Assembly: GCA_003220685.1 (NCBI GenBank)
Contig: QHTE01000053.1
Location: 107,257-171,256, forward strand
DNA: 64,000 nucleotides
DNA from: Candidatus Rokuibacteriota bacterium
GTDB lineage: Bacteria > Methylomirabilota > Methylomirabilia > Rokubacteriales > CSP1-6
Direction of reading: 5' to 3'
This document shows positions 33,310 to 52,387 of this stretch, piece after piece. A model generated the notes under the pieces. That model was not told the origin of the DNA and did not search any database. It saw only the letters and a list, made by a program, of their open reading frames with translations. The translations under genes and the position numbers were made by a program. How positions within the stretch are numbered: position 1 is the first letter of the stretch; the number at the start of each line of letters is the position of its first letter.

Positions 33310-34872
33310 CTAGCGCGCGTCCAGCCCCATCGCGTCGGCGAAGCGCCGGTATGCCTCCAGCGGATCACCGTACTTGCGATGCCCCGCCGTGTGCTGCGCG
33401 CTCGCCAGCAAGAGCCGGTCGCGGTCGTGAGCCTGCGTGTGCAGGTAATCCTCGAGCGTGCAGAGGCCGAGCTCCTGGTTGTGCGGATCGTTGCCGATGA
33501 TGCTGGCCGCGGTCGCCAGGGTCTGCACGAGCAGCGCGCGGTCGTAGCCGGCCTGCAGGTACGCGGCGGTCAAATCCACCGACTCGTCGGCGCGAAGCGC
33601 GAGCAGCGCCTGCTCCAGCTTCTCGAGAAGCTTGCGCGGCGACCACGCCTGGGAGGCGGCCGGCGGCACGATCGCGCGCCGCCCGTTGCCGGGGGTATTG
33701 GCCTGGTGCTCGGAGCCTCGATTGATGAAGAGCGCGGCGACGAACAGAAGCTTCAGGCGGTGCGGGTGCTCGAACGTGTCGTAGAACCAGCCGACCGTGT
33801 TGCAGTACTCGTAGCCGTGCTGCGCCATCGAGTAGTTGTTGGGCTCGCCGGTCTCGAGAATGACCTGGGCCGCCGCGATCTGGATTGCGTCGAGGATGCG
33901 GCGCGGGCTCCGGCCGGCTTTGAGCAGGGCCACCAGCGCGTCCACGACGGAGAACTCGCGCTGGCGGGTGATGACGTCGACCAGCATCGCTTCTTCGGAC
34001 GACGTGAGCGGCGCGGTCTGGGCGAGCAGCGCCTGATCGCGCCCGTCGAGCAGATTCTGCACGACGTTGCAGCCGAGCTCGTAGCCGGAGTACCAGCGCG
34101 GGCCCACCGCGATGTCCGGCACCCCGGCATAGAGCACGTCGTGCGCGTGGTCCCAGCCGATGGCCTCGCCGAGCTCGATCGTGGCGCGCGCGCGATAGCC
34201 CTTGTGGCCGGTGGTGTAGGAGCGGTTGTGCCACATGCGGTCCTGCACGTCGATGAGCCCCGCGAACGCGAGATGCGCGAGGACGTGCCGCCGGTTCGGC
34301 ACGTCCTGCATCAGTCCGAGGAAGACGCGATACGATTGAAGCACCTCGCCGCGTTGCACGAGCGTGAGCCAGTGATTCAGGCGCTCGCGCAGGGTGCCAT
34401 CGACCTGCAGCGGCTCCTGGTCCGGCCAGTGCCGCTCGGGCATCGGCGGCGACGTGTTCACCTCGATGTCGTAGAGGCGGGTGTAGTGGCCCGGAGCCTT
34501 CCCGAGGAGCTGGTTCCAGGGATCGAGGCCCGTCGGCATGTACCAGACGGTCTGGGCCATCGGCAGATACCGGAGCTCCGGGCGGACCATCGAGGCGAGC
34601 GGCAGACCGACCCGCTCGCTCAGAAAGCAATGGTCGTTGTTCACGAACTTCACGATGCCGTCGTCGAGCCGCTGGTGATACGGCACGTGCGTGTAGGGCG
34701 CGTGGATCCGCACGGTCTCACGCGTGATCTCGGTGAGGGGGCGGCCCTGCTTCATGAGCCGGTAGACCACGTCGCTGGCGCCATTCTGATCGCGCGCGAG
34801 GATGCGCTCCTCGAGACGCGCGTACTCGGAGGCCGGCGCCGATTCGTTCAGGACCGCGGCTCGAGTCGCCAT
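33310..34872 (-). CDS. Large conserved protein of unknown function
   Basis: A 520-residue soluble protein that I do not recognise. It is alpha-helical and rich in His, Trp and Tyr ('AQHGYEYCNTVGWFYDTFEH', 'NNDHCFLSERVGL', 'MWHNRSYTTGHKGYRARA'). No membrane segments, no signal peptide and no nucleotide-binding motif are visible. Many conserved-looking His (HxxY, DHAHD) could bind metal. It starts 8 bases after the metallo-hydrolase stop, so it is co-translated with it and may share its pathway. Start ATG preceded by 'GAGGATCCC'. Confidence 0.7.
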   Translation of the reverse strand: MATRAAVLNESAPASEYARLEERILARDQNGASDVVYRLMKQGRPLTEITRETVRIHAPYTHVPYHQRLDDGIVKFVNNDHCFLSERVGLPLASMVRPELRYLPMAQTVWYMPTGLDPWNQLLGKAPGHYTRLYDIEVNTSPPMPERHWPDQEPLQVDGTLRERLNHWLTLVQRGEVLQSYRVFLGLMQDVPNRRHVLAHLAFAGLIDVQDRMWHNRSYTTGHKGYRARATIELGEAIGWDHAHDVLYAGVPDIAVGPRWYSGYELGCNVVQNLLDGRDQALLAQTAPLTSSEEAMLVDVITRQREFSVVDALVALLKAGRSPRRILDAIQIAAAQVILETGEPNNYSMAQHGYEYCNTVGWFYDTFEHPHRLKLLFVAALFINRGSEHQANTPGNGRRAIVPPAASQAWSPRKLLEKLEQALLALRADESVDLTAAYLQAGYDRALLVQTLATAASIIGNDPHNQELGLCTLEDYLHTQAHDRDRLLLASAQHTAGHRKYGDPLEAYRRFADAMGLDAR

Positions 34873-34879
34873 GGGATCC

Positions 34880-35983
34880 TCAGGCCTTCTGGACCACCTT
34901 CTTGTGGACCATCTCGACGTTCTGTCCGACGCGATCGCGATACCGTCCGAGCGGATACTTCGACATCCCGGCCTCGTATTTCGCCGCGAGCTGGTCGCCG
35001 ATCTTGGTCTGCATCTCGGCCAGGGTGGCGCCTTCGGCCGAGGCCTTCTTCACCGCCGCGATCAGGTCGCTGAGATAGCCGCGGAAGAACGCAAGATGGC
35101 TCTTGGGCCGGACCTCGCCGTGCCCGGGAATGATCGACGCGAAATCGAGCTTCTCGACGGCGGTCAGCGTCTGGACCCAGTCCTCGGGGTAGCCGTCGTT
35201 CAGGAACGGCATCCAGTCGATCAGCGCGTCGCCGGTGGCGATGACCTTCTCCTTCGGCAGGTAGGTGTAGAGGTCGCCGTTGGTGTGGCCCCGGCCGAGC
35301 ACGTGCAGCTGGATCTCACGGCCGCCTTCCTTCAGGGTCAACGTCGTAGCGACCGTGCGCGTCGGCAGGGTCGGCTTCATCGACTTGAGCTCTTGCAAAA
35401 AGGACTCGGCCTGCCGCAGGTTGGACTCGAGGTTCTGCTTCTTCTGCGGATCCGCTTCCTTCTGGATATCGGCCTTCAGCTTGTCGATCTCACCGGGCAT
35501 GTTCGCGATCTGCTTCTCGATGTAGGGGACGCCGCCCACGCCGGCGTCCGGTTTGCCCAGGTTCTCCTTGGTCTTGTCGCTGGCGATGATCTCGAGCTTG
35601 GGGTTCGTCGCCGCGTACGACTCGTTGCCCTGCCAGTGGTCCCAGTGGAAGTGCGTGTTGATGACCTTGACCACCGGCTTCTTGGTGAGCCCCTGGATCT
35701 GCTGGTACATCACGCGCGACGCCGACGGCTTGGAGTGCGAGTCGACGACCACGACGCCGTCGTCGGTCAGGATCACCGCCGCGTTGCAGTTCACCTTGTA
35801 CCGGGTGGCCGCGATGGCGCCGTAGACGCCGTCGGCGACTTTCTTGAGCTCGAAGAGCTCCTTGTCGGCGGTCTGAGCGTGGGCGGCCACGGTACAGCAG
35901 AGCTCGTGGGGATCGAGAGTGTGCACCGCCGCGGCCGCGAGACCCATCTGGGCGAGAACCTGTCGACGCGTCCATGTCGCCAT
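34880..35983 (-). CDS. Tat-exported MBL-fold metallo-hydrolase
   Basis: A 367-residue metallo-beta-lactamase-fold enzyme. ATG at 35983, after 'GGAGGAGGACGTC'. 'TRRQVLAQMGLAAAAV' is a twin-arginine signal. Metal motif 'NTHFHWDHWQGNE' (HxHxDH), 'GRGHTNGDLY', 'IATGDALID' and 'IIPGHGEV' are all present. Between the second and third motifs lies a charged helical insert of about 60 residues ('KLKADIQKEADPQKKQNLE'), shared with the truncated gene at 63523. A quinoprotein relay or hydrolase role in the periplasm is possible. Confidence 0.9.
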   Translation of the reverse strand: MATWTRRQVLAQMGLAAAAVHTLDPHELCCTVAAHAQTADKELFELKKVADGVYGAIAATRYKVNCNAAVILTDDGVVVVDSHSKPSASRVMYQQIQGLTKKPVVKVINTHFHWDHWQGNESYAATNPKLEIIASDKTKENLGKPDAGVGGVPYIEKQIANMPGEIDKLKADIQKEADPQKKQNLESNLRQAESFLQELKSMKPTLPTRTVATTLTLKEGGREIQLHVLGRGHTNGDLYTYLPKEKVIATGDALIDWMPFLNDGYPEDWVQTLTAVEKLDFASIIPGHGEVRPKSHLAFFRGYLSDLIAAVKKASAEGATLAEMQTKIGDQLAAKYEAGMSKYPLGRYRDRVGQNVEMVHKKVVQKA

Positions 35984-36004
35984 GACGTCCTCCTCCTTTT
36001 GATG

Positions 36005-36120
36005 ATGGGGGGGCCTCGAAGGGCCCCCCAAGCCCCCGCGCTCGGAGACGGCCCAGCCAAGCTGGGACGCCCCTCGAGATCGCTTCGCGGTTTGGGGCCC
36101 TCGAAAATCCCCCAAGCCCG
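36005..36120. repeat. Dispersed intergenic repeat (family B), copy 1
   Basis: Between the FMN dehydrogenase and metallo-hydrolase genes. It holds G-run/C-run hairpins (GGGGGGCC-TCGAAG-GGCCCCCC) and the blocks 'CCCCGCGCTCGGAGACGGCC', 'CCCCTCGAGATCGCTTCGCG' and 'TTTGGGGCCCTCGA'. The same blocks occur in reverse order and orientation at 44650-44744. It also forms the 5' leader of the metallo-hydrolase gene. Confidence 0.85.
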
Positions 36121-36134
36121 CTCACTCCACGGTG

Positions 36135-37187
36135 CTAATCCGCCCTGAAGATCAGGTCGGGCTTGAGGTCGGAGATTTTGGTGCGACCGCAGAGACCCAT
36201 CGCGACGTGCAGCTGATCGCGCAGAATCTCGAAGACGCGCGCGACGCCCTCGGCGCCGTCGGCGGCGAGGCCCCAGAGCGCGGTCCGGCCGAGCAGGACG
36301 ACCTTGGCCCCGCGCGCCAGGCCCTTGATCACGTCGGTGCCCTTCGTGAAGCCGCCGTCGATGACGATCTCGGCGCGGCCGGCGACCGCGTCGACGATGG
36401 GTGGCAGCGCCTCGATGGACGACTGCGTGTGATCGAGCTGGCGGCCGCCGTGGTTCGAGACCCAGATGAGCTTCACGCCCATCTCGGCGGCCCGGCGCGC
36501 GTCCGCGACCGTGAGAATGCCCTTGAGCCCGACCGGGAGCTTCGTCGTCTTCATGAGCCACTCGACGTCGGCCCAGGTCAGACGCATCTGATAGTCGGGC
36601 ATCGGGCCGCGCGGGTTCGGCGCGATCTCCATGGCCTTGCGCGGGCTCCAGCGCGCGAGGGTGTCGCGCTCGCGGCGGCTGTAGTGCTGGGTGTCGACGG
36701 TCAGCGCGACGGCCTTGTATCCCGACATCTCGACGCGCTTGAGGAGCTCAGCCACCCAGCCGCGGTCGCCGTGGTGATAGAGCTGGAACATCTGCGGCGC
36801 TCCGCCCGCGCGCGCGACGTCCTCGACGGGCCAGCCGGTGGCGCCGGAGAGCCACTGCAGAATGTCCCCCTTGCCGGCGCCGCGGGCCATCTCCACATCG
36901 CCCTCGGGATGGAAGAGCACAAGGCCGCCCATCGGCGCGATGCCGACCGGTGCCGAGAGCGGCACGCCGAGAAGGCTCGTGCGCAGGTCGATATCGCGCA
37001 CGTCGACGAGGACGTTCTGCGCGATGGCGAGTCGGTCCAGATGGCGCTTGTTGCGGCGCAGGGTCGCTTCCGACTCGCTGCCGCCGTCGCCGAAGTTCCA
37101 CGCTTCACGGGCGAGCCGCGCCCGGGCGGCGCGGCGAATCTCGGGGAGTGTCGCGAACGGACGGGGGAATTCCCGGGTCTGGCTCAT
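36135..37187 (-). CDS. FMN-dependent alpha-hydroxy-acid oxidase/dehydrogenase
   Basis: A 350-residue TIM-barrel flavoprotein of the L-lactate dehydrogenase/glycolate oxidase family. The active-site His/Arg is in 'WVSNHGGRQLDHTQSSIEAL', FMN phosphate binding in 'EIVIDGGFTKGTDVIKGLA' and 'VVLLGRTALWGL'. It oxidises an L-2-hydroxyacid to the 2-oxoacid. The start follows no strong ribosome site. Divergent from the LVIVD gene at 37262. Confidence 0.9.
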   Translation of the reverse strand: MSQTREFPRPFATLPEIRRAARARLAREAWNFGDGGSESEATLRRNKRHLDRLAIAQNVLVDVRDIDLRTSLLGVPLSAPVGIAPMGGLVLFHPEGDVEMARGAGKGDILQWLSGATGWPVEDVARAGGAPQMFQLYHHGDRGWVAELLKRVEMSGYKAVALTVDTQHYSRRERDTLARWSPRKAMEIAPNPRGPMPDYQMRLTWADVEWLMKTTKLPVGLKGILTVADARRAAEMGVKLIWVSNHGGRQLDHTQSSIEALPPIVDAVAGRAEIVIDGGFTKGTDVIKGLARGAKVVLLGRTALWGLAADGAEGVARVFEILRDQLHVAMGLCGRTKISDLKPDLIFRAD

Positions 37188-37261
37188 GGCGCAGTACTAT
37201 ACGCCAGTCGCTGACCCGAGTCTTGGTACACTGCAGCGACTTCCGCAGGAAGGGAGACGGC

Positions 37262-38421
37262 ATGAGTGGCAACGGCACTAGCGCCAGAGGCGTGCGGCAG
37301 GTCGGCTACTTCGATTGCGCCGGCGGCGGGCAGGTGGTCGTCGACGGACGGGTGGCGTTCGTCGCGCACATGAAGGCACCGCACGGCACCACCGTCGTCG
37401 ACGTCAGCGATCCATCGCGGCCGCGCCAGCTCGCCTCGATCGAAGTGGAGCCCGGCACGCACTCGCACAAGGTGCGCGCGGGCAACGGTCTCATGCTCGT
37501 GAACCGGGAGGCGCACGGTGGCCCGGCGCGTCGCCCAACGCGCCGCGCGGCCTCGGCATCTACGAGGTGTCGAACCCGAGCTGGCCGCGCGAGATCACGC
37601 TTTGGAAGAGCGGCGGGACCGGCGTGCACCGCTTCACCTTCGACGGCCGCTACGCTTATGGCTCACCGGAGATGGACGGGTATGTCGGCAACATCGTGAT
37701 GATCCTCGACCTCGCCGACCCGAGCCGTCCTCAGGAAGTCGGACGCTGGTGGATGCCCGGGCAGTGGACGGCCGGCGGTGAGACGCCCACGTGGTCGGGG
37801 CGCCAGCACCGCTGCCATCATCCGATCCGTGAGGGCAACCGCCTCTACGTCAGCTACTGGCACGGCGGCTTCGTCATCCTCGACATCGAGGACATGGCCA
37901 AGCCGCGCTTCGTCTCCGGACTCGATTGGAGCCCGCCGTTCCTGACGCCGACCCACACGGCGCTGCCGGTACCGTTTCCGCTCCACGGCCGCAAGGTGAT
38001 GCTGGTCGCCGACGAGGACGTAGCCAAGCTCGCTCAGGGGCCGCCCTCGTTTCTCTGGCTGGTGGACATCTCCGATGAAAAGAAGCCCGTGCCCTTCGCG
38101 AGCTTCCAGGTGGACACCGACGGGCAGCCGCAGCCGGAGTTCACGGGCTGCCACCAGCCGTGCGAGAAGATCACCAGCACTGAGATTCCCGTGGCGTGGT
38201 TCGCCCACGGCCTGCGCATCGTGGACATCGCGAACCCGCACGCGCCGCGCGAGGTGGGCCACTTCCTGCCGCCGGTGCCCGAGGGATCGTCGCGCGTCTG
38301 CAGCAACGACGTGTGCGTGGACGAGCGCGGTCTAATGTACCTGGTGGACCGCGGCCGCGGTGTGCACATCCTCGAGCGCGTGCGCGATGACGGTGGCCGC
38401 GAGGCGCCTGATGCCCGATAG
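37262..38421 (+). pseudogene. LVIVD/beta-propeller protein with a single-base frameshift
   Basis: The frame from the ATG at 37262 ('QVGYFDCAGGGQVVVDG', 'VDVSDPSRPRQLASI', 'HSHKVRAGNGLMLVNRE') is continued after about 37515-37540 in another frame ('NAPRGLGIYEVSNPSWP', 'VMILDLADPSRPQEV', 'HGLRIVDIANPHAPREVG'). Length is one base short of a multiple of three, so one base is missing near 'GGTGGCCCGGCGCG'. The repeated V-D-[IV]-[SD]-x-P units are LVIVD repeats of a beta-propeller. About 386 codons when repaired. It overlaps proS by 11 bases. Could be a sequencing error rather than decay. Confidence 0.75.
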
Positions 38422-39850
38422 CCTGCCGACGCGCCAGCAGGACTTCAACGAGTGGTACAACCAGCTCGTGCTGCGCGCGGATCTGGCGGACTACGCGCCC
38501 GTGCGCGGCTGCATGATCGTCAAGCCGTACGGCTGGGCGCTCTGGGAAAACATCCAGGGTGCGCTCGACCGGCGCTTCAAGGCCACCGGCCACGTGAACG
38601 CGGCGTTCCCGCTGTTCATCCCGAAGTCGTTCCTCGAGAAGGAGAAGCAGCACGTCGAGGGATTCTCGCCCGAGCTGGCCGTGGTCACGATCGGCGGCGG
38701 CGAGGAGCTGACCGAGCCCCTGGTGGTGCGGCCGACCTCGGAGACGATCATCGGCCACGCGTACGCCCAGTGGATCAAGTCGTATCGCGACCTGCCGGTG
38801 CTGATCAATCAGTGGAACAGCGTCGTGCGCTGGGAGCTCCGCACCAAGCTCTTCCTGCGCACGCTCGAGTTCTGGTGGCAGGAGGGCCACACCGCGCACG
38901 CGACCTACGAGGAGGCCGAGGCCGAGACGCGCCAGATGCTCGACGTCTATACCGACTTCGCCGTCAACGAGGCCGCGGTGCCGGTCATCCCGGGCGTCAA
39001 GTCGCCGTCCGAAAAGTTCGCCGGCGCGCTCCACTCCTACACGATCGAGGCGATGATGGGCGACAAGCGGGCGCTGCAGGCCGGCACGTCGCACAACCTC
39101 GGCCAGAACTTCGCGAAGGCATTCAACATCCAGTATCTCGACCGCGACAACCAGCTCCAGTACTGCTGGACGACGTCGTGGGGTCTGTCCACGCGCTTCA
39201 TCGGCGCCATCATCATGGTCCACGGCGACGATCAGGGGTTGATCCTGCCGCCGCGCCTGGCGCCGCACCAGGTCGTCGTCGTCCCGATCTACCGGAGCGA
39301 CGCCGAGCGCTCGTCGGTGCTGGAAGCCGCGGGGCGTGTGAAGACTCAGCTGGCGACGGGCGCCGTGCGGGTGCGCCTCGACGAGCGCGAAGGCGTGACG
39401 CCGGGCTTCAAGTTCAACGACTGGGAGATGCGCGGTGTGCCGTTGCGCATCGAGATCGGCCCGCGCGACGTGGAGAAGCGCTCGGTGGTCCTGGCCCGGC
39501 GCGACACGCCGGGGAAGGCCGGCAAGTCGTCCGCGCCGGAAGAAGGGCTCATCGGCGCCGTGACGGCCGCCCTCGAGTCGATCCAGAAATCGATGTACGA
39601 GCGCGCCCAGTCGTTCCTGCACGCCAACACCGCCGAGCCGAGGAGCTACGACGAGTTCAAGCAGGCGGTCGAGGCCGGGCTGTTCTGTCGGGTCTGGTGG
39701 TCGGGCGACGACGAGCGCGAGGCGACGATCAAGGAGGAGACGAAGGCGACGATCCGCTGCATCCCGCTCGAGCAGCCGGGCGGCGAAGGGATCTGCATCG
39801 GCACCGGCCGCCCGGCCAAGCAGGTAGCGATCTTCGGTCGGGCGTACTGA
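38411..39850 (+). CDS. proS: Proline--tRNA ligase, archaeal/eukaryotic-like type
   Basis: A 479-residue class II synthetase. Motif 1/2 region 'PLVVRPTSETIIGHAYAQWI' and 'NSVVRWELRTKLFLRTLEFW', proline pocket 'WWQEGHTAHATYEEA', motif 3-like 'IIMVHGDDQGLILPPRLAPH'. A C-terminal anticodon domain and an extra C-terminal region (to 'IFGRAY') follow. The layout lacks the INS editing domain of ordinary bacterial ProRS, so it is the short ProRS type 3. ATG at 38411 overlaps the preceding gene. Essential: charges tRNA-Pro. Confidence 0.93.
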   Translation: MPDSLPTRQQDFNEWYNQLVLRADLADYAPVRGCMIVKPYGWALWENIQGALDRRFKATGHVNAAFPLFIPKSFLEKEKQHVEGFSPELAVVTIGGGEELTEPLVVRPTSETIIGHAYAQWIKSYRDLPVLINQWNSVVRWELRTKLFLRTLEFWWQEGHTAHATYEEAEAETRQMLDVYTDFAVNEAAVPVIPGVKSPSEKFAGALHSYTIEAMMGDKRALQAGTSHNLGQNFAKAFNIQYLDRDNQLQYCWTTSWGLSTRFIGAIIMVHGDDQGLILPPRLAPHQVVVVPIYRSDAERSSVLEAAGRVKTQLATGAVRVRLDEREGVTPGFKFNDWEMRGVPLRIEIGPRDVEKRSVVLARRDTPGKAGKSSAPEEGLIGAVTAALESIQKSMYERAQSFLHANTAEPRSYDEFKQAVEAGLFCRVWWSGDDEREATIKEETKATIRCIPLEQPGGEGICIGTGRPAKQVAIFGRAY

Positions 39851-48598: not shown

Positions 48599-48991
48599 AT
48601 GGCCGTGAGCGAGACCTACGAGAAGGGACGCGAGATGCGTCGCCAGCTGCTCGGCGACGCCTACATCGAGCGCATCAACCAGACCGCGTACGCCGATCCC
48701 CACATGAAAAAGTTCCTCGACGTGGCGACCGAGAACGTGTTCGGCGCCCTGTGGACGCGGCCGGGATTGGATCTCAAGACTCGTACCTTGATCTGCGTCG
48801 TGTCCGACGCCGCGACGGCGCGCACGCCCGAGCTCGCCCTCCATGTCCGAATGGCGCGCCGACAGGGCTGGAGCGAGGACGAGCTGATCGAGGTGCTCCT
48901 GCACCTCTCCGGCTACGTGGGAGTGCCGCTGATCCGCGAGGCGATGCTCACGGCGAAGGAGGTGTTCGCCGAGATGCGCAAGGAGCGCTGA
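48599..48991 (+). CDS. Carboxymuconolactone decarboxylase family protein (no Cys pair)
   Basis: A 130-residue CMD protein of the PcaC type: 'YEKGREMRRQLLGDAYIERI', 'FGALWTRPGLDLKTRTLICV', 'ARRQGWSEDELIEVLLHLSG'. No CxxC is present, so it is a decarboxylase- or isomerase-type member, not a redox one. This contrasts with the CxxU protein at 9609. 'GAAAAGGAGCCCCC' precedes the ATG. Confidence 0.88.
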   Translation: MAVSETYEKGREMRRQLLGDAYIERINQTAYADPHMKKFLDVATENVFGALWTRPGLDLKTRTLICVVSDAATARTPELALHVRMARRQGWSEDELIEVLLHLSGYVGVPLIREAMLTAKEVFAEMRKER

Positions 48992-49003: not shown

Positions 49004-49087
49004 TCAGGTGAGGAAGCGCCGGTAAGCCAGCGCGACGATCAACGCCAGGGCGAGCTGGAATAGGTCCAGGGGAGAAATCACGGGCAT
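49004..49087 (-). CDS. Possible 27-residue membrane peptide
   Basis: Reverse frame from the ATG at 49087: a short start, then 'LDLFQLALALIVALAYRRFL' ending in a basic tail and TGA. It is one hydrophobic helix with positive C-terminus. No homologue known to me and no strong ribosome site. Could be a fragment or a chance frame. Confidence 0.25.
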   Translation of the reverse strand: MPVISPLDLFQLALALIVALAYRRFLT

Positions 49088-49372
49088 CACGTTTGGCCAC
49101 CCTCCCACAGGGTGTCTGTATCGTTGTCGGTTTCGACCACTGCCCCGGCGCTCGCGATGGAGCTGCAAGCGATGTACCCGCCGTCCATTCTCCGGAGAGC
49201 GCGCGGGCGAACCGCGCGAAAGGGCTCGGGGACCGTACCGCGACCGTGTGCGGGCGCCAGCGCGGTCGGCGCGGCCCGGTCGTGAAAGCGTAAAGCCTTC
49301 CGACGATGCTGCCGTTCGGGTTCCAGAATTTGCGACAAGCCGGGCGTGCTATCGTCGCCCCGGGAGGTCCTC

Positions 49373-49573
49373 ATGTCCGTCGTCCTCGTCACGGATAGCA
49401 TCACCGGCATCGGCCTCGCCACGGCGCTCCACTTCGGGCGCCTCGGCGACGGAGTGTACGCCGGAGTCCGCAACATCGCCACCGCGACCGAGCTCACCAC
49501 GGCAGTCGAGGTCGAGAAGCTGCCGGATTTCAGTGGTAAACGGACTTCAGTGGCAAGAGGGAGGAATCCATGA
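49373..49573 (+). pseudogene. SDR N-terminal stub
   Basis: 'VVLVTDSITGIGLATALHFG' is the cofactor-binding start of an SDR (TGxxxGIG form), but the frame ends after about 66 codons, its last 20 residues unlike any SDR. The 3' end runs through a direct repeat TTCAGTGG (49529-49536 and 49546-49553) and overlaps the selenoprotein start by 4 bases. Probably a relic whose translation may couple into the next gene. Confidence 0.55.
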
Positions 49574-51216
49574 GCGCTGACAAGATCATGGTGCTGAACC
49601 CGATGGGCTTTCCGCCGAACGTGGTGAACAAGCCGCTGGCGCCTCGTCTGTCCACGCTCGAGGGCAAGACCGTCTATCTCGTCGACTGCCGCTTCGACGA
49701 CTCCGACGTCTTCCTCAAGCAGGTGCAGGCGTGGTTCGGCGAGCACATGCCGGGCGTGCGCACGGTCTTCAAGCCGCTCTCGAGCGTCTATCTGAAGGAC
49801 GATCCCGCGACCTGGGAGGAGATCAAGGCGAGGGGGCACGCCGCGATCGTCGGCGTCGGCCACTGAAGCACCTGCGCGCCGGCGGTCGCCGCGCACGCGA
49901 TGACGATCGAAGCGCAGTACGGAGTGCCCACCGTCGCCATGCACACCGACAAGTTCGACCGCGTGGCCCGCTCCGTGGCCGCGGTCAACGGCATGTCCGA
50001 GCTCCGACAGGTGTTCGTCCCCCAGCCGGTCATGGGCAAGACACAAGCCGAGCTCCGCGCCTACGTCGACGGGCGGGATCCGCTGACCGGGCGCCCGGTC
50101 ATGCAGGAGGTCGTCGAGGGGCTCACGGCGCCGTTCGACGGCCGCGGGGTGGGGACGATCGAGTACGACCGGTCGACGCCACGACTGGTCGAGGCGGACA
50201 CGGAGGAGAACCTGCATCGGTTGTTCATGGAGAGCCGGTGGACGGACTATCTCCCGATCGTGCTCCCGACCGAGGAGCGCGTCGCGGCCATGCTGGCGGC
50301 GACGCGCCGCAAGCCGGACGAGGTCGTCGGGCGCATGCGCCCCACGCACTTCCGCGAGGCGTGGGAGTACACGGTCGAGAAGGTGGCGGTGAACGCCGTG
50401 ATGGCCGGCGCCCGACCGGAGTACTTCCCGGTGATCCTGGCGCTGGCGGCCACCGGCGTCAGCGCCCGCGGCAGCACGACCAGCTCGATGGCCGCGATGG
50501 CCGTGGTCAACGGGCCGATCCGCAACGAGATCAAGATGAACGCCGGGACCGGGGCGCTCGCGCCCTACAACCACGCCAACGCGACGATCGGCCGCGCGTA
50601 CGGTCTGCTCTCGCAGAATCTCCAGGGCGGGTCCGTGCCCGGGCTCACCTACATGGGCTCGCAGGGCAACAACTACGCCTACAACAGCATCACGTTCCCG
50701 GAGAACGAGGAGCGGAGCCCCTGGGAGCCGTTCCACGTCCAGCACGGCTTCCGTCCGACCGACAGCACCGTGAGCGTCTTCAGCGGCTGTCGCGCGACGG
50801 CGTACACGCTCGGCATTCGCGAGAAGCACTGGCGCGAGCACGTCCGCAACATGCTGCGCGGCATGGATCCGCACATCCCGCCCGTGTTCGTGATCGATCC
50901 GATCACCGCGCGCCAGTTCATCGACCGCGGCGGCTTCACGAAGAAGGACGCGCTGATCGACTGGGTGTACGAGAACGCGCGGATGCCGGCCGCCGAGTTC
51001 TGGGACTACCAGCTCGTCCAGAACTATATCTACCCGCGCGCGACGTTCGGCGAGGAGCCCTGGGCGACGAAGCTCAAGGCCGCGCCGGACGAGATGGTCC
51101 AGATGTTCAAGCGCGAGGACATCCACGTGGTGGTCGTCGGCGGGGAGACGAACGGCTACTGGCGGATCGTGGGCGCCACGTACGCGAAGACCGTGTCGGT
51201 CGACGACTGGCGGTAG
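49570..51216 (+). CDS. UGSC-family (seleno)protein with in-frame UGA (UxxC) and a long C-terminal domain
   Basis: Conventional reading stops at TGA 49864-49866, but the same frame runs on to 51216, giving 548 residues. The TGA is codon 99 in 'AAIVGVGH-U-STCAPAVAA', exactly the U/C position of the U-x-x-C motif that gives the UGSC family its name (here U-S-T-C). The N-terminal module ('LSTLEGKTVYLVDCRFDDSD' ... 'YGVPTVAMHTDKF') matches the family. The C-terminal 350 residues ('NAVMAGARPEYFPVILALAA', 'NEIKMNAGTGALAPYNHANA', 'YAYNSITFPENEERSPWEPF') form a second conserved domain of unknown function. GGGAGG precedes the ATG. A SECIS-like hairpin follows the UGA. Function is presumed redox. Confidence 0.9.
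49876..49894 (+). promoter_or_regulatory. Bacterial SECIS-like hairpin of the UGSC selenoprotein
   Basis: GCG (49876-49878), bulged C (49879), CGGC (49880-49883), loop GGUC (49884-49887), GCCG (49888-49891), CGC (49892-49894). The loop starts 17 bases after the UGA. E. coli fdhF has the same plan: a 4-bp upper stem, one 5' bulge, and a GGUC loop 18 bases after its UGA. This is the best SECIS candidate in the window. Confidence 0.85.
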
Positions 51217-51294
51217 GGACGGGCTGGCTCCGCACTAGCTATCGCGTCCGACTGGTTCTTTGGTGGCGATCAGCGGCCGTCTTAAGGTGGTGGT

Positions 51295-52122
51295 ATGCCC
51301 GCACACCATCACCGCTCACGTGCCCGCTGGAACACCAGCGCATCATTGGTCGTCCTGATTGTCGGCCTTCTCGGGGCGGTGCCGCTCGCTGGCACCGGCC
51401 CGGCCCAGGTGACGTTCCCGGCCGCCCCCGCGGGGGGCGCCGCCGTTGTCGACGAAGCGAGGCTGATCGCCCCGCTCCATCAAGTGGATATCGAAGGGCT
51501 TGCCTTAGAGCTCAAGCGCGAGCATGGCTATCCCGTGACCGTGGTCACGATCCAGTCGCTCTCGGCTCACGGTGCCGGCGGTTACACGATCGAGCGGTAC
51601 GCGTCCGAGTTGCTGAAGGCGTGGCCCCCCGACGCGGACCGGCAGGGCTACGGCCTCACGCTGCTCGTCTCGGCCGACGATCGACTCGCGCGCATCGAGC
51701 TCGGGTCCGCGTGGCGTGGAGTGCACGACGGTCGGGCTCGGGAGATCATGGACCATCTGATCCTGCCGGCGTTCCGTCGTGGCGAGCTTTCCAAGGGGAT
51801 CCTGGCCGCCGTAAAGGGATTCGATGCCATGGGCCGCGGGCGTCGGCTGCCGGGCGAGTCCTGGTTCGGGTGGCTGATCCCGGCGGCCCTGGCCCCGGCG
51901 GATCAGCCGTGGTGGCTCATGCCGGCGATCGCCGCGGGCGCCATTGTGCTCGTCGCCGGCATCCTCTCTCTCGCTCGGAGCGGGCGAAAGGGCCTCGCGT
52001 GGGCGGCCGCCGGATTCTTCGGCGCCATCCTCCTCTCGCGGGTGATCGCCATGGCCAAGGGCGACGACTCGGGCGATTCCGGAGGCTCGACGGAGAGCAG
52101 CGGCGCTACTGGGAAATGGTAG
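51295..52122 (+). CDS. TPM-domain membrane protein
   Basis: A 275-residue protein: N-terminal signal/anchor ('ASLVVLIVGLLGAVPLAG'), a TPM domain ('VVDEARLIAPLHQVDIEGLA', 'YPVTVVTIQSLSAHG', 'DRQGYGLTLLVSADDRLARI', 'IMDHLILPAFRRGELSKGIL'), two membrane helices near residues 205-245 and a Gly/Ser-rich tail ('DDSGDSGGSTESSGATG'). TPM proteins have roles in acid phosphatase activity and photosystem repair; in bacteria they are mostly uncharacterised envelope proteins. Its stop lies in a family A repeat. Confidence 0.85.
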   Translation: MPAHHHRSRARWNTSASLVVLIVGLLGAVPLAGTGPAQVTFPAAPAGGAAVVDEARLIAPLHQVDIEGLALELKREHGYPVTVVTIQSLSAHGAGGYTIERYASELLKAWPPDADRQGYGLTLLVSADDRLARIELGSAWRGVHDGRAREIMDHLILPAFRRGELSKGILAAVKGFDAMGRGRRLPGESWFGWLIPAALAPADQPWWLMPAIAAGAIVLVAGILSLARSGRKGLAWAAAGFFGAILLSRVIAMAKGDDSGDSGGSTESSGATGKW

Positions 52123-52170
52123 TGCGCGCCGCAGGCCGTCGCGGGGCTGGGGTCCCGCCGGCCGAGGCGC
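52122..52170 (+). repeat. Dispersed intergenic repeat (family A), fourth copy
   Basis: GTGCGCGCCGCAGGCCGTCG to 'CCGGCCGAGGCGC' matches the copies at 26642-26764. It begins at the last base of the TPM stop codon and ends one base before the stop codon of the amidohydrolase fragment, so it exactly fills the space between two convergent genes. Confidence 0.85.
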
Positions 52171-52387
52171 TTAGATCCCCAGCAGGCGCTCGAGGTTGCG
52201 CCAGAGGATCGCTTCCTTCTCTGCCTGCGTGAGGCTCTCCATCGCCAGAATCCACGAGACGGGCCAGTCGAGCGCCATGTCGTACGGCCAGTCCGTGCCG
52301 AAGACGACGCGATCGGCGCCGACGGTGTCGATGAGAAAGCGCAGCGCCGATTCGGTGTAGACGATGCAGTCGTAGTAGAAGCGCCGG
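52171..52387 (-). pseudogene. Amidohydrolase C-terminal fragment
   Basis: Reverse frame 'FYYDCIVYTESALRFLIDTV', 'VVFGTDWPYDMALDWPVSWI', 'AILWRNLERLLGI' then TAA: the last 70 residues of an amidohydrolase_2 protein with the conserved Asp-Trp-Pro-Tyr. The N-terminal 260 residues are absent. The sequence breaks abruptly at about 52385-52390, where the plus-strand oxidoreductase fragment begins. Confidence 0.75.

Follow-up and report, generated by a model that had tools for sequence, protein, structure and literature searches.

The 64,000-nucleotide stretch of Candidatus Rokuibacteriota DNA analysed here (the window) contains a long reading frame interrupted by a single in-frame TGA. The locus raises the question of whether this codon ends one protein or is read as selenocysteine (Sec) within a longer one and, if the latter, what kind of protein results.

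A UGA-interrupted gene of the UGSC family

The frame in question comprises 548 codons on the forward strand (49570-51216), opening with ATG at 49570, closing with a TAG stop at 51214-51216 and having the TGA at 49864-49866 as its sole interruption, in agreement with a preliminary description of two frames in the same register separated only by this codon. A GGAGGA sequence is visible by eye close upstream of the ATG. Read through, the TGA corresponds to residue 99 of a 548-residue protein and lies in a U-S-T-C motif, which bears out the earlier observation that this motif replaces U-G-S-C.

The Pfam UGSC family (PF24696) matches the joined protein at residues 8-167 with 88.1 bits (gathering cut-off 25 bits) and recognises each piece separately, with 28.8 bits before the TGA and 37.1 bits after it; the claim that a single family extends across the codon is therefore sustained. 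The Pfam match and the predicted structure delimit an N-terminal UGSC domain (49570-50139), followed by a C-terminal domain of approximately 350 residues (50167-51213). The NCBIfam UGSC equivalog model (NF041046) scores the protein at 64.4 bits, under its cut-off of 125 bits. Because it passes the Pfam cut-off, falls below the equivalog cut-off and carries U-S-T-C, the window protein is, on sequence criteria, a diverged member of the UGSC family, which qualifies the family assignment first proposed. The window protein shares with UGSC selenoproteins (PF24696; NF041046) the family match across the Sec codon and the placement of Sec in a UxxC motif, but differs from them in its U-S-T-C motif and its score below the NCBIfam cut-off. 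The other seven UGSC genes of the same genome encode U-G-S-C.

UGSC selenoproteins, including a fusion termed UGSC/Unknown_1, have been published since 2008 (PMC2398784, Figure S1A), and few prokaryotic selenoprotein families are more abundant in aquatic metagenomes (PMC2398784). The available portions of that paper assign it no function. The family is also listed or mentioned in PMC13188914, PMC9312934, PMC5029168, PMC7539508, PMC9402790, PMC7435645 and PMC5330540. The genome of the window harbors eight UGSC genes, each with one TGA (8/8), and the family is present in 72 of 95 genomes of the phylum, a single genome carrying as many as 12 copies; among the matches listed, every gene contains one TGA. 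Sec in UGSC genes is thus ordinary for this group and not peculiar to the gene in the window.

The surroundings of the gene were also inspected. A short frame of 66 codons (49373-49573) overlaps the selenoprotein ATG through an ATGA overlap and resembles, by eye, the start of a short-chain dehydrogenase; it has no Pfam match and is perhaps a gene relic. Neighboring genes encode a carboxymuconolactone decarboxylase-family protein (48599-48988) and a TPM-domain protein (51295-52119). Two very long overlapping frames, of 679 codons on the reverse strand (49087-51126) and of 833 codons on the forward strand (49731-52232), were disregarded because they look like shadow frames, as GC-rich DNA produces them. 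A scan of positions 49300-51400 against Rfam returned a single irrelevant match, below the gathering score. When the frames neighboring 35 homologous loci and the window were clustered, the largest clusters held 6 of the 36; a PF04909 amidohydrolase appears in a cluster of five loci (L030, L050, L063, L064 and L074), the Pfam assignment having been checked in L064 only.

Conservation of the UGA codon among homologues

Scanning the GTDB r220 genomes identified 50 homologous loci. Two of these (L076 and L077) do not reach residue 99 and were left out of the codon count; among the remaining 48, the codon at this position is TGA in 46 and TGC in two (L053 and L055, from records titled Rhizobiales and Roseiarcaceae). 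Homologues with Sec or Cys at residue 99 had been proposed as support for a selenoprotein, and all 48 loci carry one or the other codon, presenting the conserved in-frame UGA with Cys variants by which bacterial selenoproteins are recognized. The TGA is shared down to approximately 41% identity, in records titled with several phyla. The titles of the homologous loci include Rokubacteria, Chloroflexi, Deltaproteobacteria, Gammaproteobacteria, Acidobacteria, Poribacteria and Latescibacterota, and one homologue in a record titled Rokubacteria is 95% identical. One homologue (L058, 67% identical, with TGA) comes from a bin titled Bordetella parapertussis whose genome has a strong selA match (G029); we suspect that this title is wrong.

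Given 50 homologous loci with 46 TGA and two TGC codons, a chance match is excluded by sequence comparison and the frame is real. A sequencing error at 49864-49866 is very unlikely, since 46 other loci have TGA at this position too. The same counts argue against a pseudogene, in which a nonsense mutation or sequencing error would have broken a UGSC-like gene and left its two halves as relics. In translation table 11, TGA is indeed a stop, and a second frame could begin farther downstream, from the ATG at 49900; against this stand the persistence of the TGA across several phyla, as titled, down to the lowest identities, the retention of the family match by both halves, and silent sites past the TGA that are the most conserved of 135 compared. 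We consider this explanation extremely improbable.

The distribution of codons also modifies one element of the preliminary description, which saw in residue 99 a redox Cys replaced by Sec. With 46 TGA against two TGC codons, Sec prevails among these homologues and Cys is exceptional, so that residue 99 is not a Cys site newly turned to Sec. In this predominance of Sec the gene again resembles other UGSC selenoproteins, for which 255 Sec and 21 Cys homologues were reported in the ocean samples of GOS (PMC2398784).

Selenocysteine machinery

The genome of the window (6.09 Mb in 137 contigs, 87.6% complete) encodes selA (500 bits), selB (363 bits) and tRNA-Sec (69.8 bits, anticodon UCA) together within 5 kb of contig C73 (approximately 34776-39513), and selD (335 bits), a gene itself broken by one in-frame TGA, on contig C19. 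Each match is above its curated cut-off, and the search for selA, selB, selC and selD suggested beforehand thus found all four in the same genome.

Of the 48 genomes behind the homologues, 46 have TGA, and a selA match passes the cut-off in 39 of these; the two TGC genomes, a small number for this comparison, lack any match. The remaining seven TGA genomes, all of unstated completeness, show partial selA matches below the cut-off (G010 and G025), weak matches only (G020 and G027) or no selA match (G006, G033 and G041).

These results bear on the alternative that the genome is recoded and UGA specifies Trp or Gly. Such a genome would be expected to hold several genes with in-frame TGA codons, as this one does, but those examined all belong to Sec families (SelD, UGSC and GrdB-like), in which Sec is known at these sites. 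Together with the presence of all four sel genes and the finding that neither genome with a Cys homologue has a selA match, this renders recoding almost vanishingly improbable.

Constraint on the RNA downstream of the UGA

We folded the RNA downstream of the UGA as stretches of 46, 52 and 62 nt. The 46-nt fold alone contains a SECIS-like hairpin with bulges that starts 7 nt past the UGA (49874-49898) and presents the apical loop GGUC 17 nt past it (49884-49887). In bacterial SECIS elements, the apical loop begins with G. The 52- and 62-nt stretches form a longer hairpin with the loop GCAC. In a scan of 52 TGA rows, from which one further piece (of L078) was dropped as too short, the best SECIS-like element is GGUC at 17 nt in 30; the gene in the window is among the rows where another hairpin, here that with loop GCAC, outscores it, and L071, L072, L073 and L075 score best with a GUC loop 21 nt away. 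The stability of the hairpin is not above that of dinucleotide shuffles (z of 0.52, 1.11 and -0.38). A synonymous-recoding test was weak, as 29 of 150 recodings equalled the gene in the window and 11 of the 52 TGA rows fell in the lowest 5%, with the paralogue L029 faring worse than most synonymous recodings.

The strong evidence comes from silent sites, whose conservation was ranked over 135 fourfold-degenerate columns in 25 TGA sequences, after dropping the four most distant and the two Cys rows from a 31-row alignment. Residues 105, 106, 107 and 104 rank 1, 2, 3 and 5, respectively. The silent positions of residues 105 and 106 lie in the loop and are invariant among the TGA homologues compared; in the stem, the silent positions of residues 104 and 107 form a base pair (columns 18 and 27). 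In all 46 TGA genes with Ser after Sec the codon for residue 105 ends in G, and residue 106 is either Val, invariably encoded by GTC (43/43), or, in the remaining three, Thr encoded by ACC. Three of the four pairs at the tip of the hairpin have substitutions in both partners, and across 31 distinct sequences 92.7% of cells are paired; with the partner slid by -3 columns, 90.3% of cells still pair, and the covariation score is lower, at 0.130 versus 0.207. The Cys homologue L055 keeps the same three loop codons, and RNAalifold proposes a different, shorter pairing. A constraint at the RNA level just after the UGA is shown by this comparison of sequences.

A partner domain fused to or adjoining UGSC

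From approximately residue 200 onward, the window protein matches no Pfam or NCBIfam family. The C-terminal domain occurs nine times among the stretches read in this genome. Five copies are fused behind UGSC (in the gene of the window and in four more), three form a frame of their own ahead of UGSC (L080, L081 and L082, on contigs C98, C19 and C90), with 5 to 14 bases between the matched stretches, and one has no UGSC within the 9 kb read. Overall, this partner domain is fused to five and adjoins three of the eight UGSC genes of the genome. The order is reversed between the two arrangements, with UGSC preceding the partner in the fused genes and following it in the split loci, which argues that the partner domain and UGSC form a working pair. 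The UGSC/Unknown_1 fusion reported in GOS likewise joins a UGSC domain to a domain without a known family, and Unknown_1 may be the C-terminal domain described here.

The predicted structure of the partner domain has a pLDDT of 86.5. A Foldseek search with this model against solved structures returned nothing at E 0.001; the best rows, Leishmania fumarate hydratases at E 9.2e-3 and an rmsd of approximately 17, were not used. A profile of the domain had no match among PDB sequences up to E 10, and comparison with the PrdB-like profile gave no match (0.2% probability).

The existence of the partner as a separate gene in three other loci, together with the ATG at 49900, would be compatible with two proteins, the first stopped by the UGA and the second a 438-residue frame translated separately from that ATG. 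However, this ATG lies within the UGSC domain and not at the domain border near 50167, the residues just past the TGA are conserved, and the split loci present the opposite order, with the partner before UGSC. A separately translated second frame is accordingly very improbable.

The UGA at 49864-49866 is instead very likely read as Sec to yield one 548-residue selenoprotein, a reading to which we assign a probability of about 0.93 on the combined grounds of the family match, the TGA in 46 of 48 loci, the sel genes of the genome, the lack of selA in the TGC genomes and the silent-site conservation. SelB with Sec-tRNA would decode the UGA, assisted by the RNA hairpin just downstream.

Predicted fold and possible relationship to GrdB and PrdB

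An AlphaFold2 model of the whole protein, computed from 31 rows, has a pLDDT of 89.6 and places Sec between a strand (residues 91-97) and a helix (residues 102-117), in a domain of alternating strands and helices. Judged by eye on this model, the UGSC domain looks Rossmann-like, with Sec after the third core strand. Foldseek with the whole model returned nothing at E 0.001 (best E 1.4e-3, rows unused).

A thioredoxin-like fold has been guessed at for UGSC (PMC2398784); the domain would then be an oxidoreductase acting on general disulfides, and the UxxC motif would suit such a protein. The strand-helix alternation of the model, the absence of any thioredoxin title among the 50 best Foldseek rows (none of them significant) and the profile matches to GrdB/PrdB-like sequences described below all speak against it, and we regard it as unlikely.

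Pairwise comparison of profiles with hhalign aligned the Sec positions of UGSC with those of GrdB (94.7% probability) and of PrdB-like proteins (93.0%) taken from related genomes. The corresponding scores of 55.9 and 51.0 compare with maxima of 22.0 and 24.1 in 150 column shuffles each. When the UxxC motif was masked, scores of 35.1 and 35.9 still exceeded the masked-shuffle maxima of 21.8 and 23.8, with probabilities of 52% and 58%; aligned end to end with the motif masked, the probabilities were 6.5% and 7.2%, and the scores of 18.4 and 18.7 were above the maxima of 11.4 and 12.1 in 100 unmasked shuffles. When the GrdB/PrdB-like sequences were compared one by one, all 25 scored at least 24.0, and 250 random neighboring frames scored at most 23.9. 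The profile similarity is thus concentrated around the Sec site but not confined to the motif, moderate when masked (52-58%) and weak end to end; these statistics are pairwise rather than calibrated against a database, and their controls are column shuffles and neighboring frames.

Genes of the GrdB/PrdB-like type (PF07355) are present in 32 of 39 genomes, including that of the window. We fetched 30 such loci (L098-L127) and left out L111; in 29 of the 29 read on, a TGA lies within a few codons past the Pfam GRDB match, at the Sec position. Three copies are found in the genome of the window (C131:157671, C101:4682 and C23:189028), of which only that on C131 was read on. UGSC and GrdB/PrdB-like proteins have in common a TGA after a strand-like stretch, mostly in UxxC, a likely helix and then a G-[IL]-P/S-T-like stretch. 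The motif is U-G-T-S in L098-L105 and U-G-S-G in L106. In contrast, the window protein has no match to PF07355 up to E 1 or E 5, and its N-terminal part and partner domain are different.

Searches of PDB sequences gave no match to the protein itself up to E 1, 18 rows for the UGSC profile (best E 0.25), three for the GrdB profile (best E 0.13) and three for the PrdB-like profile, the best of which (E 2.3e-4) is a de novo designed protein; no glycine or proline reductase appears among the rows shown. On the profile evidence, the chances are roughly even that the selenoprotein reductases of the GrdB/PrdB type include the UGSC domain as a distant branch. In the accessible text of the literature mentioning both families we found no statement of such a kinship, and the profile alignment of UGSC with GrdB and PrdB, together with the finding that the fused domain occurs as an adjacent gene elsewhere, is perhaps new.

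Discussion

The alignment of UGSC with the GrdB and PrdB profiles, together with the occurrence of the partner as an adjacent gene, points to a Sec-dependent reductase or reductive lyase that is made of two parts and would act on a small substrate. Sec, located after a strand and paired with Cys in U-x-x-C, would be the nucleophile, would be oxidized to a selenenylsulfide during the reaction and would be reset by a thiol reductant. Judging from fusion and gene order, the substrate site is probably formed or held by the C-terminal domain or, in split loci, by the product of the neighboring partner gene. Reductive cleavage by the UGSC protein is itself only inferred, since the whole model and the C-terminal domain have no significantly similar solved structure.

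The identification of the gene as a selenoprotein adds one more copy to a family that was in the literature by 2008 at the latest; the greater interest would lie in the function of UGSC. In our estimate there is an even chance that UGSC constitutes a third branch beside glycine reductase GrdB and proline reductase PrdB, and that UGSC proteins and their partners make up a large, unrecognized set of two-part Sec-dependent reductases, expanded to as many as 12 copies in a genome of this phylum, each perhaps with a substrate of its own. The link to GrdB and PrdB and the recurrent partner give the search for that function a testable direction.
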